From Candidatus Methanoperedentaceae archaeon (GTDB lineage: Archaea > Halobacteriota > Methanosarcinia > Methanosarcinales > Methanoperedenaceae), in the NCBI GenBank assembly GCA_003104905.1, contig PQAS01000034.1, positions 12,917 through 57,437 of the forward strand: DNA of 44,521 nt, written 5' to 3'. The position numbers were made by a program, and so were the translations under genes. The notes under the pieces were generated by a model, which had not been told where the DNA came from, did not search any database, and was given only the letters and a program-made list of their open reading frames with translations. Positions 12 through 12,921 of this stretch are shown here, in pieces (within the stretch, counting starts at the first letter, position 1; each line of letters starts with the position of its first letter).

Positions 12-93
12 GTAGTTACAGGCGCCTAATAAAAACGATGGGTCGAAGGAGACTGAGGGTACTAAAGGCATTAGGCGCCCGGTCCTACAGCAA
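12..93 (-). ncRNA. Putative structured small RNA, copy 1 of a tandem pair
   Basis: This 82-bp core is identical to the core at 222-303, while the sequence around each copy has clearly diverged. A perfect 10-bp inverted repeat (GGCGCCTAAT with ATTAGGCGCC) and an outer GTAG/CTAC pair would fold the element into one long stem with a pyrimidine-rich apical region on the minus strand. A TATA-like box lies upstream on the minus strand at the same distance in both copies, which is why I chose this strand. No credible open reading frame is present. The apical strand carries TCTCCTTCG, complementary to Shine-Dalgarno-type GAAGGAG, so a ribosome-site-pairing regulator is possible but is inference. The 3' end lies close to the window edge. 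Confidence 0.5.
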
Positions 94-113
94 TATTGAT
101 GATGATTTAATAG

Positions 114-124
114 TATTTAATATT
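114..124 (-). promoter_or_regulatory. TATA-like box for RNA copy 1
   Basis: The plus-strand sequence TATTTAATATT reads AATATTAAATA on the minus strand. It begins 20 nt outside the 82-bp core, the normal place for an archaeal TATA box relative to a start at or just inside the core. The same 11-mer sits at the identical distance from copy 2 although the intervening 20 nt are largely different. Confidence 0.5.
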
Positions 125-221
125 AACTGATATATTCTTTCATGTAAATAATTATACTCATAATCATAATTGTTCCGAAGTGAATAAATAAACAAATACA
201 AAAAATTCTATTGGAAAAGGT

Positions 222-303
222 GTAGTTACAGGCGCCTAATAAAAACGATGGGTCGAAGGAGACTGAGGGTACTAAAGGCATTAGGCGCCCGGTCCTACAG
301 CAA
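222..303 (-). ncRNA. Putative structured small RNA, copy 2 of a tandem pair
   Basis: This is the second identical copy of the 82-bp core, offset by exactly 210 bp from copy 1. The stem arms are at 231-240 and 280-289, with the outer GTAG/CTAC pairing at 222-225 and 295-298. Just past the core on the minus strand is a run of six T (plus-strand A at 200-205), which could terminate the transcript. The gene would lie directly downstream of gatD on the same strand, but it has its own TATA-like box, so independent transcription is likely. The family is not one I recognise. Confidence 0.5.
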
Positions 304-323
304 ACTGTATAATGTTCTTCTAC

Positions 324-334
324 TATTTAATATT
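324..334 (-). promoter_or_regulatory. TATA-like box for RNA copy 2
   Basis: This is the same TATTTAATATT 11-mer, again separated from the core by 20 nt of unrelated sequence. Conservation of box and spacing, with divergence between them, is the main argument that the repeats are transcribed on the minus strand. Confidence 0.5.
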
Positions 335-3286: not shown

Positions 3287-4296
3287 ATGGTAGAAGATAT
3301 TCACAACAGGGTTAAGACTCTGGATAGAAATACTGACAGATACATATCAAAGCTTTTTGCTGATGACCAGGAAGATGCCAGGCGTTTTATTAACGATTTA
3401 CTGGCTCAGGGATATTCAGCGGGCAGGGTGGATAAATACCTCTCATCATTGGTCAGTATTAGCAGAATGCTTAACGCATCTTTCAATGATGCAAAAGAAA
3501 CTGATATCAAGCGGTATGTGGCACAACTGGAAAAAAGTGAATATGCTGAGTGGACTAAACACGATTCAAAGATAATCCTGCGGGTTTATCTTCGCTATCT
3601 GGGGAAGGGAGATATAATCACATGGATGAAAGTTAAACCGCCTAAAAACGGTAAGCTGCCTGAGGAAGTCTTAGCAGAAGATGAAATAAAAGGAATGGCT
3701 GAGGCTGCATATACTTCAAGGGATAAGGCATTTATCCTTTCATTCTACGAATCAGGCACACGGATAGGGGAATTTTTGCCGATGAAGTTGAAGCATGTCA
3801 GCTTTGATAAATACGGGACAGTATTCAGGGTTACAGGGAAGACAGGGGATAGGCGCATAAGATTGGTGGCATCTACTTTATCCTTACAGGCATGGATAAA
3901 TGAGCATCCGCCCAAGAACAATCCTGATGCTTATCTATGGTGCAAGACGCCTGCGCCTAATAATCCAAAGTGGAAAAATAATCATTTGAGTTATGGTTTT
4001 ATTGGCAGGCTTCTTAATGAGCTTGCGGTAAAAGCAGAAATAAGAAAAGCCGTTAATCCTCATGCCTTCAGGCACAGTAGGGCTACTTTCATGGCAAAGC
4101 ATCTTAAAGAGCCTGAAATGAGGGAGTTCTTTGGCTGGGGCAGAGATAGCGAAATGCCAGCGGTGTCTATGTGCACTTAAGCGGTAGAGATGTGGATAAT
4201 TCGGTTTCAGCAGTTTATGGCATTAAAGAAGCTGCAAAGAGCAGCGAACCGATTATCAAGACATGGATATGCCAGAGATGCCAGGAAGCATTGTAG
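3287..4296 (+). pseudogene. Tyrosine recombinase (XerC/D-type integrase), frameshifted near the catalytic Tyr
   Basis: The first frame (3287-4180, 297 residues) encodes a SAM-like N-terminal core-binding domain (about 1-110) and a catalytic domain with the Arg motif GTRIGEF and the HAFRHSRAT box. It then ends abruptly at EMPAVSMCT. The expected ending, VYVHLSGRDVDNSVS with the nucleophilic Tyr, is present in another frame from about 4165 and runs to TAG at 4294-4296. A one-step frameshift near 4157-4167 therefore separates the Tyr from the rest. The downstream zinc ribbon usual in archaeal relatives is cut after CQRCQ, where transposase sequence begins. This is a disabled element integrase unless the shift is a sequencing error or programmed. 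Confidence 0.8.
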
Positions 4297-5180
4297 ATGT
4301 GTCGACATTGAAGAATACAATTAAGAAAATCCAGGCATGTGGAATTCAAGATTATACCTTGATAATGGATAGGGGATTTTTCTCAACACCAAATCTGGAA
4401 GAAATGGTCAACAGTGGACTTTCATTCATAATACCGCCCTCAACGACGATGAAAACTGTAAAAGAGGCAATATCTATCATCCATTCATCAATTTCTAACC
4501 CCAACAATCTTAACATTTATCACGATGAGCCATTGTTTGTCAGTCCAGTTACTATCAATATAGGAGAATTTGCCGTAGAAGGCTATACATATTATGATCA
4601 AAAACGAGAGCAGCAGGAACGGCAATCATTTTATAGGAGATTGTACGACACGGTTGAAGCTCTTAGAAAAATCGAGATCAGATCATGGATGAATCCTCTC
4701 GATGTTTTCAAAGAAATAGCAAAGAAAAATGCTCAATATATTGATTGGAAAGTCAATAATAATCGATTCGAAGTGGAACTGAAAAAAAATGCTGTTTCAC
4801 AGAGGGTAAACAGGATGGGGAGATTTATTCTTCTTTATAATGGAAAATTTGGATGGGAAGAATGCCTGTCGCTTTACAGGAGCAAAGACGTGGTTGAAAA
4901 AGGATTTGATGTAATGAAAAATGAACTCGATGTAATGCCAGCAAATGTAAGAAAAGACAGTACTATGAGAGGATATTTGTTTATCTGCTTCCTGTCGTTG
5001 ATTTTGAGGATGCGATTGATGAAATTGATGAGGGAAGCAGGTTTATCGAGTAAGTATTCAGTCGAAGCGTTGGTCACAGAACTTGAGAAGAACAGGGTAA
5101 TGATATTGCCGGATGGAACGCAGATTGTGACTGAACAAACGAAGAGGCAAAAAGAAATATTTAAAGTATTATGTGCCTAA
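4263..5180 (+). mobile_element. IS4/IS1634-type transposase, N-terminally truncated
   Basis: The 305-residue open frame matches the C-terminal two thirds of an IS1634-like DDE transposase. Visible are PGSIVDVSTL, the second catalytic Asp in IMDRGFFS (about residue 40), and the Y-(2)-R-(3)-E-(6)-K-type signature in YRSKDVVEKGFDVMK with the catalytic Glu. The N-terminal part with the first Asp is absent: homology begins at about 4268-4275, right where the integrase zinc ribbon breaks off. The product cannot be a complete transposase. The apparent ATG at 4263 is fortuitous. I did not find terminal inverted repeats. Confidence 0.8.
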
Positions 5181-5244: not shown

Positions 5245-5484
5245 TCATTCCATTAATCTAATGAACTCTTCTCTTGTAAATCCTGATTGCTTAATAATTG
5301 ACATCAAAGTTCCCTTTGGTATAGGATCTCTTATTGGAACGATAACGAGATACTTTTCTCCATGATCCCCTACTCTAACCAATGCAATATGACTACCTTT
5401 CCCCTTAATAGGGGCATAATCAAATCCAGCTTTAAGGAGACGTTTTATGACCTTATTTGAGGAAATAGAAGGGAGTTTGCTCAC
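5245..5484 (-). CDS. hicA: HicA-type mRNA interferase toxin
   Basis: The 79-residue protein fits the HicA/YcfA family, small double-stranded-RNA-binding-fold ribonucleases that cleave mRNA during translation. The signature is near residue 32, with GKGSH supplying the catalytic His, followed by the strand VIVPIRDPIPKGTL. The gene overlaps the upstream hicB-like gene by four bases (ATGA), the usual coupling in a toxin-antitoxin operon although here the antitoxin gene is first. It lies in a decayed mobile-element region, typical for such modules. Confidence 0.85.
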   Translation of the reverse strand: MSKLPSISSNKVIKRLLKAGFDYAPIKGKGSHIALVRVGDHGEKYLVIVPIRDPIPKGTLMSIIKQSGFTREEFIRLME

Positions 5485-5726
5485 ACTGCCACACCAAAAG
5501 TGGAAGTGAATTTATTTGGCGAATGTAAGGACGCGGCAAAATCATTCAAAATTCCCAGAGCTTTGGCATTCTCAAGATATAATTCAACAGCCTCTTTCAG
5601 GTTTTCAAGGGCTTCTTCTGGTGTGTCACCTGCACTGGCAACTTCAAGTTCAGGGCATTTTGAAACATAAACATCATCTTCCTGCCAGATTATAGCTGTA
5701 ACATTTAATTTTTCCATGCTTTTCAT
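5481..5726 (-). CDS. hicB: HicB-like antitoxin
   Basis: The 81-residue product shows the HicB partial RNase H-like fold: a strand with a bulky aromatic (AIIWQEDDVYVSKCPELEVASAG) followed by the helix TPEEALENLKEAVELYLENA. There is no obvious C-terminal DNA-binding domain, so it resembles the short HicB form that neutralises HicA by contact. The start is ATG 5724-5726 or the in-frame ATG at 5715-5717. An A+T-rich TATA-like sequence centred near 5752 is about 26 bases above the first ATG, consistent with leaderless transcription. Confidence 0.8.
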   Translation of the reverse strand: MKSMEKLNVTAIIWQEDDVYVSKCPELEVASAGDTPEEALENLKEAVELYLENAKALGILNDFAASLHSPNKFTSTFGVAV

Positions 5727-11781: not shown

Positions 11782-12906
11782 ATGGTGAATTTCGAAGAGA
11801 TTGAAGCGGTTTATAAAAGACTTGAAAGTAAGCTTACGCCTGATGAATTCAGGTCAAAAGTCGAGACGAAATTCATGGAAATGAATGGTCTTTGCGATCC
11901 AAAGACTGCCGCTATGCTTGTCGCAAGCGAACTGGGAATGAATGAAACCGTTAAGATCAAGGATATAACTGCCGATAAGGGCAATATTATTTTTGTTGCA
12001 AAGGTGATATCCGTTGGGGATATCAAGGAGTTTTCACGCGATAATGATACTATGGGCCGCGTAGTAAACCTGAATCTTGCGGATGAAACGGGCTCTATAA
12101 GGGCTGCATTATGGGACGAAGCAGCTGACCTTGTGAAGATCGGAGATATAAAAATGGGGCAGGCTATCAAAGTTAAAGGATTCATAAAACAGGGGCAGCG
12201 CGGACTCGAAGTGAATGTGGGAAGGGGTGGGAATATTGAGACTGTGAAAAAAGAAGTCCCGGTGAATTTTAAATCCCATAAGATCCATGAGATCAAAGCT
12301 GGGATGAGCGATCTCAATGTTCTTGGCAAGGTACTTGATCTCGGAAAGGTGCGCACATTCGCACGAAAGGATGGAAAGACGGGTAAAGTCGCAAATATTA
12401 CAATAGGGGATGACACAGGAAAAATCCGTCTCACGTTATGGGACTCAAAAGCCGAATCCCCAGGTGTCAATGTCGGGGATATCGTAGAGATCATGAATGC
12501 ATATGCGCGCGAAAATACATTCAGCAACTCCACAGAACTGCAGCTGGGTTCCGGCGGGGGAATTGCAAAAAGCAGCGCCGATGTTAACTATAAGGAACCG
12601 CTCACGCCAATAGCCGATATCGGTATTAATTCTGCTTACAGTGTGGCCGGGCATGTTTCCGGAATAGATGAAATGAGGGAATTCGAAAGGCCTGACGGCA
12701 CGAAAAGCAGGGTATCGAATATTTACATATCGGATGTCACGGGGCGCATAAAAGTGGCCCTCTGGGCTGAACATGCAGAGCTTGTAAATGAAATTGAGAT
12801 CGGAAGCGAAATATGCATTGTGGACGCTTTTGCAAAATCAGGAAGGAACGAGGAAGTGGAACTCAGCGCCGGGGCAAGGACAAGCATTCGGATTATTCGT
12901 AAATGA
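11782..12906 (+). CDS. RPA-like single-stranded DNA-binding protein with three OB folds
   Basis: After a helical N-terminal region (1-50), the 374-residue protein holds three similar OB-fold repeats at about 55-155, 165-265 and 275-372. Each repeat carries the strand pattern KVISVGDIKEF / RVVNLNLADETGSIRAALWDE or its counterparts. This matches euryarchaeal replication factor A proteins, which coat single-stranded DNA in replication, repair and recombination. No zinc finger is present, so it resembles the RPA1-type of Methanosarcina more than zinc-finger RPAs. radA lies downstream in the same direction, a functionally fitting neighbour. Confidence 0.9.
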   Translation: MVNFEEIEAVYKRLESKLTPDEFRSKVETKFMEMNGLCDPKTAAMLVASELGMNETVKIKDITADKGNIIFVAKVISVGDIKEFSRDNDTMGRVVNLNLADETGSIRAALWDEAADLVKIGDIKMGQAIKVKGFIKQGQRGLEVNVGRGGNIETVKKEVPVNFKSHKIHEIKAGMSDLNVLGKVLDLGKVRTFARKDGKTGKVANITIGDDTGKIRLTLWDSKAESPGVNVGDIVEIMNAYARENTFSNSTELQLGSGGGIAKSSADVNYKEPLTPIADIGINSAYSVAGHVSGIDEMREFERPDGTKSRVSNIYISDVTGRIKVALWAEHAELVNEIEIGSEICIVDAFAKSGRNEEVELSAGARTSIRIIRK

Positions 12907-12921
12907 GTCTTAACGACACTG

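Follow-up and report, generated by a model that had tools for sequence, protein, structure and literature searches.

Organization of the locus

The window, by which we mean the whole 44,521-nucleotide stretch of contig PQAS01000034.1 that was analysed, begins inside an array of near-identical repeats located where moaC (plus strand) and gatD (minus strand) converge, between their 3′ ends. Two cores, at 12-93 and 222-303, agree at all 82 bases with an offset of 210, and TATTTAATATT occurs at 114-124 and again at 324-334, separated from the core by 20 bases that have diverged between the two window copies. Within the cores, the arms GGCGCCTAAT and ATTAGGCGCC form a perfect stem of 10 bp. A sequence-only reading of the window had reported the 82-bp cores, the offset, the repeated box and the perfect stem, and all of these were confirmed, the coordinates to the base. 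Its tandem of two was correct in that both window copies are real, but the array in this Ca. Methanoperedens genome (G000) consists of four copies. The other two, at 12539-12632 and 12749-12843 of contig C34, lie left of the window, in part within the stretch of N (about 12835-12916) at whose edge the window starts. The tandem near-identical copies probably caused this assembly gap, and the true copy number may therefore differ from four. The end of the moaC-proximal copy falls at the moaC stop region.

Read on the minus strand, the order of elements is a TATA box, about 20-25 bases, paired arms round a large loop, and a U-rich stretch. The minus-strand fold had a predicted energy of -26.9 kcal/mol, compared with -16.7 kcal/mol for dinucleotide shuffles (z -3.6), and none of 200 shuffles folded as well. 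The features of the locus, with the evidence for each, are as follows.

200-303, minus: gatD-proximal sRNA gene, complete (covariance model match 302-209, 104.4 bits, E 1.3e-29; fold z -3.0 to -3.6)
300-303 (5′) and U-rich 216-213 or 205-200 (3′), minus: predicted ends of the gatD-proximal sRNA, the 5′ end near the first of these
242-279, minus: loop of the gatD-proximal copy, 38 nt, near-invariant, GCCUUUAGUACCCUCAGUCUCCUUCGACCCAUCGUUUU (pairwise identity 0.991, 42 copies)
256-262, minus: UCUCCUU inside the loop, complementary to AAGGAGA, hexaloop predicted unpaired (Shine-Dalgarno hexamer counts, unpaired probabilities)
222-240, minus: stem 3′ arm, AUUAGGCGCCUGUAACUAC (compensatory changes against 280-298)
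280-298, minus: stem 5′ arm, GUAGGACCGGGCGCCUAAU (compensatory changes against 222-240)
324-334, minus: TATA box of the gatD-proximal copy, AATATTAAATA (identity in 42 copies 0.96; spacer to the RNA 0.68)
358-380, minus: (NAT)n array ATTATGAGTATGATTATAATTAT, which precedes the TATA box and overlaps the stop codon of gatD (period-3 element, 47 aligned copies)
374-1627, minus: gatD, Glu-tRNA(Gln) amidotransferase subunit D, the conserved neighbour that precedes the sRNA array and shares its strand (Pfam GatD_N and Asparaginase; synteny)
1-93, minus: second sRNA copy, its 3′ end leaving the window into the assembly gap (core identity; covariance model match 92-1, 97.2 bits)
32-69, minus: loop of the second copy, identical to 242-279
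114-124, minus: TATA box of the second copy, AATATTAAATA
148-170, minus: (NAT)n array preceding the TATA box of the second copy, in a stretch that has no coding gene

Elsewhere in the window, two small adjoining ORFs on the minus strand (5245-5726) resemble, by eye, a HicA/HicB toxin-antitoxin pair, and they adjoin a transposase-like ORF at 4263-5180.

Stem covariation and the RNA strand

Pairing in the stem was assessed in an alignment of 41 sequences. Changes on both sides were found at 12 of the 17 stem pairs, and the covariation score (0.358, against 0.212 when shuffled) was reached by none of 500 shuffles. In the true register 91.5% was paired, compared with 28-41% in all slid registers, and the variants of the stem include GGCGCC/GGCGCC, GGTGCC/GGCACC and GGTATCT/AGATACC, among others. 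The small-RNA family proposed from the sequence alone thus gains strong support, as the covariance search found homologues that keep the pairing through compensatory changes while their sequence varies. In the inner helix, 33 cells were G-U or U-G and 11 were A-C or C-A, and this excess of G-U over A-C favours the minus strand as the RNA. Within the loop, covariation supported no helix. A predicted GUC/GAC mini-stem there would present UCCUUC as a hexaloop, unpaired in the prediction; one pair of this mini-stem is broken in one copy and in a second paralogue type. On sequence grounds, we regard the element as almost certainly an sRNA gene.

Promoter and upstream array

The TATA box AATATTAAATA stands at a fixed distance from the RNA, and each copy appears to have its own promoter on the RNA strand. 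In this genome, AATATA-N6-AATATTAAATA without mismatch is found at three sRNA copies only, the promoter of the fourth being masked by N, and looser matches were no commoner than the control. A period-3 array, ATnATnATnATnATnATAATTAT, precedes almost every sRNA TATA box by 23-48 bp (47 aligned copies). Since this array also occurs where no gene lies upstream, it is not coding. Other (NAT)n arrays in six genomes were several-fold commoner than the reversed pattern, and no recognisable or coherent regulon was found among them. The upstream array resembles a Fur box, with 17/19 in L032. Regulation by Fur was considered and rejected, because all matches to the FUR family, from 16 of 31 genomes, were weak and partial, and the arrays elsewhere came without a coherent regulon. 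In one genome, G015 (L193, L195, L198), near-identical insertion-element-like genes (VVLGMDHRPFTSY...) have a (NAT)n array beside the start.

Conservation and age of the copies

Mean pairwise identity among 42 copies was 0.99 for the loop, 0.96 for the TATA box, 0.73-0.78 for the stem arms, 0.68 for the spacer and 0.32 for the 3′ flank. Such unequal conservation indicates that selection acts separately on promoter, pairing and loop. The 60 bases upstream of the gatD-proximal copy are 98% identical between G000 and G004, whereas they are only 72% identical to those of the neighbouring copy in G000, the cores being 100% identical. Because the upstream sequence is more like that of the orthologue than that of the neighbouring copy, the duplication predates the species split, and recent copying fails to explain the identity of the cores. 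Selection rather than recent copying alone, as the sequence-only reading had argued, accounts better for these values; purifying selection, possibly assisted by gene conversion of the core, keeps the copies alike.

Distribution in Methanoperedenaceae

Between one and four copies of the sRNA, rarely five, are present in every well-assembled Methanoperedenaceae genome. The covariance model was positive in 30 of 34 genomes of the family and in all 21 whose completeness reaches 90% with contamination of no more than 5%; completeness is 63-74% in the four genomes that lack the element. With one genome per species, for about 85,000 species, an exact 21-mer pattern matched 32 contigs, all of them from Ca. 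Methanoperedens or Methanoperedenaceae. BLAST, the 21-mer scan and the covariance model thus concur in restricting the element to Ca. Methanoperedens and Methanoperedenaceae. Outside the family, among the genomes of the order (186) and the class (238), the covariance model yielded one false match, an order-level hit in G180 (E 0.0018) that is a low-complexity repeat, GAGGGTTT. A search of a phage collection gave zero matches to the element, and the matches in a plasmid collection (28 bases, E 0.1) were attributed to chance. No family in Rfam 15 matched the element, even at E 5, and the gathering threshold was not reached; in the literature searched, preprints and subscription journals excepted, no small RNA was described for Methanoperedens. 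The family is new, while its kind, a trans-acting archaeal sRNA, is already known.

The order moaC, sRNA, gatD was kept in all contigs that extend to those genes; the exceptions are a small number of additional chromosomal copies, which in some genomes lie near pheS/purA, hisA and hisS (gene names taken from translations). One extra copy, in G019 (L105:1243-3410), is near genes for a DtxR-type metal-dependent repressor and the cobalt-transport protein CbiQ. Three related genomes have a second, diverged sRNA type with the loop GUCUUUAGUAGCCUCAGUCUCUUUCGAAACAUCGUUU and an unchanged promoter layout (L101:2021-2115, L102:6172-6266 and L103:5743-5837).

A copy on a viral contig

The element was also found on the 54,970-bp IMG/VR contig IMGVR_UViG_3300037264_009246 (L066:1998-2096, minus strand). 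The loop of this copy is identical to the host loop, and its stem has little sequence in common with host stems, yet is paired nearly throughout. It is preceded by a TATA-like AATTAAATA, and the genes nearby encode a subtilase, a Kelch protein, an integrase-like protein, an MCM helicase and a clamp loader. The putative host of the contig was assigned from the RNA alone. Just past the viral TATA-like box, AATGATAATCATTAT matches the E. coli Fur box over 15 contiguous bases.

Function of the loop

Shine-Dalgarno-like hexamers were counted for 310 genes of this genome, from which stretches amounting to 400 kb were sampled. AGGAGA preceded 5.8% of starts, compared with 0.7% inside genes, and AAGGAG preceded 5.5%, compared with 0.6%. 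These are the two commonest such hexamers upstream of starts, and both are contained in AAGGAGA, the complement of UCUCCUU, which makes repression of translation in trans the leading, though unproven, mechanism. In this scheme, a free-standing gene on the minus strand, tandemly repeated and with its own TATA promoter, would produce an RNA of about 95-105 nt, in which a stem of at most some 17 bp may hold the 38-nt loop open and single-stranded. The RNA would most likely act in trans, UCUCCUU chiefly, together with the neighbouring C-rich ACCCUC and GACCC, pairing with the ribosome-binding sites of target mRNAs and so blocking their translation. The several copies could provide extra dose or differently controlled expression, and the virus may use its copy against the same targets. 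Computation establishes the RNA family, its structure and strand, the promoter and the occurrence throughout Methanoperedenaceae; transcription, RNA size, Shine-Dalgarno pairing, repression and use by the virus are inferred. Taken as a whole, from sRNA gene through pairing and copy dose to viral use, this scheme is one that we hold tentatively, with a little less than even confidence.

Several findings count against this mechanism. Across start regions, the duplex energy of the whole loop did not exceed that of dinucleotide-shuffled loops (19 of 40 were as good), and the best duplex matches near starts were judged to be chance. A 20-mer with up to 3 mismatches matched only the four sRNA copies in its own genome, revealing no long antisense target, and three 14-mers with up to 1 mismatch gave non-copy matches in 31 genomes at about the level of a reversed control, with no recurrent site recognised. 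The second paralogue type reads UCUCUUU and one g2 copy UUUCCUU, variants which weaken a strict AAGGAGA rule. The earlier suggestion that the loop pairs with ribosome-binding sites thus retains circumstantial support from the commonest hexamers, while no target was found for it.

The conserved loop is five times longer than the Shine-Dalgarno seed. Conservation well beyond the seed, together with the lack of a conserved target in these searches, leaves room for a protein- or ribosome-binding role. The main alternative, accordingly, is that a protein or the ribosome recognises the 38-nt loop in its entirety, the RNA being a global regulator, a sponge or an RNP component and the stem merely a holder. 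We consider this a real possibility, although a less than probable one: almost every loop base is conserved, in the viral copy also despite its unrelated stem, and no conserved long antisense partner emerged, but the element matches no known RNA family, and UCUCCUU fits the commonest Shine-Dalgarno hexamers. A bolder form, in which the RNA would be a lineage-wide global regulator with a loop that a protein or the ribosome would read as a whole and not through short seed pairing, and the virus would encode a stem-swapped mimic in order to control its host, seems to us unlikely.

Other explanations of the repeats

The position of the element directly 3′ of gatD on the same strand, convergent with moaC, could also suggest a cis element or a processed gatD 3′ UTR (for instance a terminator), or an RNA antisense to the 3′ end of moaC, at whose stop region the moaC-proximal copy ends. 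We find this improbable, as every tandem copy comes with a conserved TATA box and upstream array of its own, copies also occur at a distance from the two genes, close to pheS/purA, hisA and hisS, as well as on the virus, and termination needs no large invariant loop. Even less probable is the end of a mobile element, or an integration site, copied by recombination. Tandem repetition and the copy on an integrase-bearing viral contig are what such an origin would produce, but the syntenic position is fixed, orthologous copies are found across species, and the stems have changed in a compensatory manner. Because no host copy found has a stem like the viral one, the viral copy is not a captured att half. 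A mobile-element end was one of the cases that the sequence-only reading had named against itself, and the synteny of moaC and gatD, with few extra chromosomal copies, speaks against it. A small protein encoded in the loop region on the minus strand is scarcely credible, since the frame that reads AUGCCUUUAGUACCC from ATG in the copies of this genome has ACG in place of ATG in about half of the family and carries one extra base in the moaC-proximal copies of G000 and G004, and pairing, not codons, governs the changes in the stem. An archaeal H/ACA guide RNA was rejected, as the 3′ ACA box is not kept (CUACACC in some copies, CUACUCC in many others).

Comparison with known sRNAs

For a trans-acting sRNA that would pair with ribosome-binding sites, precedents exist in the same archaeal order. 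In Methanosarcina, loop 2 of sRNA154 and sRNA41 mask ribosome-binding sites, and sRNA154, which has two loops, is described as conserved in that genus (PMC5867862). Like the sRNA described here, sRNA154 and sRNA41 of Methanosarcina mazei are intergenic and free-standing (PMC5867862). Unlike sRNA154, with which it was compared by description, the present family has a covariance model that stays within Methanoperedenaceae among 238 class genomes. The rhizobial alpha-r14/NfeR1 sRNAs present an ultraconserved, unpaired anti-Shine-Dalgarno motif, CCUCCUCCC, on strongly differing stems, an arrangement that follows the logic seen here, with a motif kept identical and exposed while the stems differ (PMC10746234). 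They differ from it in being bacterial, in having three hairpins per RNA, and in a motif of 9 nt as opposed to the 38-nt loop here. No sequence relation between the two was seen, the Rfam search being without a match. LhrC of Listeria, also bacterial, is encoded by multi-copy, near-identical sRNA genes with C-rich stretches that bind Shine-Dalgarno sequences. As it is generally described, LhrC is alike in copy number and C-rich stretches, and different in structure.

Ca. Methanoperedens couples the oxidation of methane to the reduction of nitrate and metals. The invariant 38-nt loop makes the choice between pairing and protein binding directly testable, and an sRNA that is universal, ultraconserved, multi-copy and virus-borne offers a handle on post-transcriptional control in these anaerobic methanotrophs.
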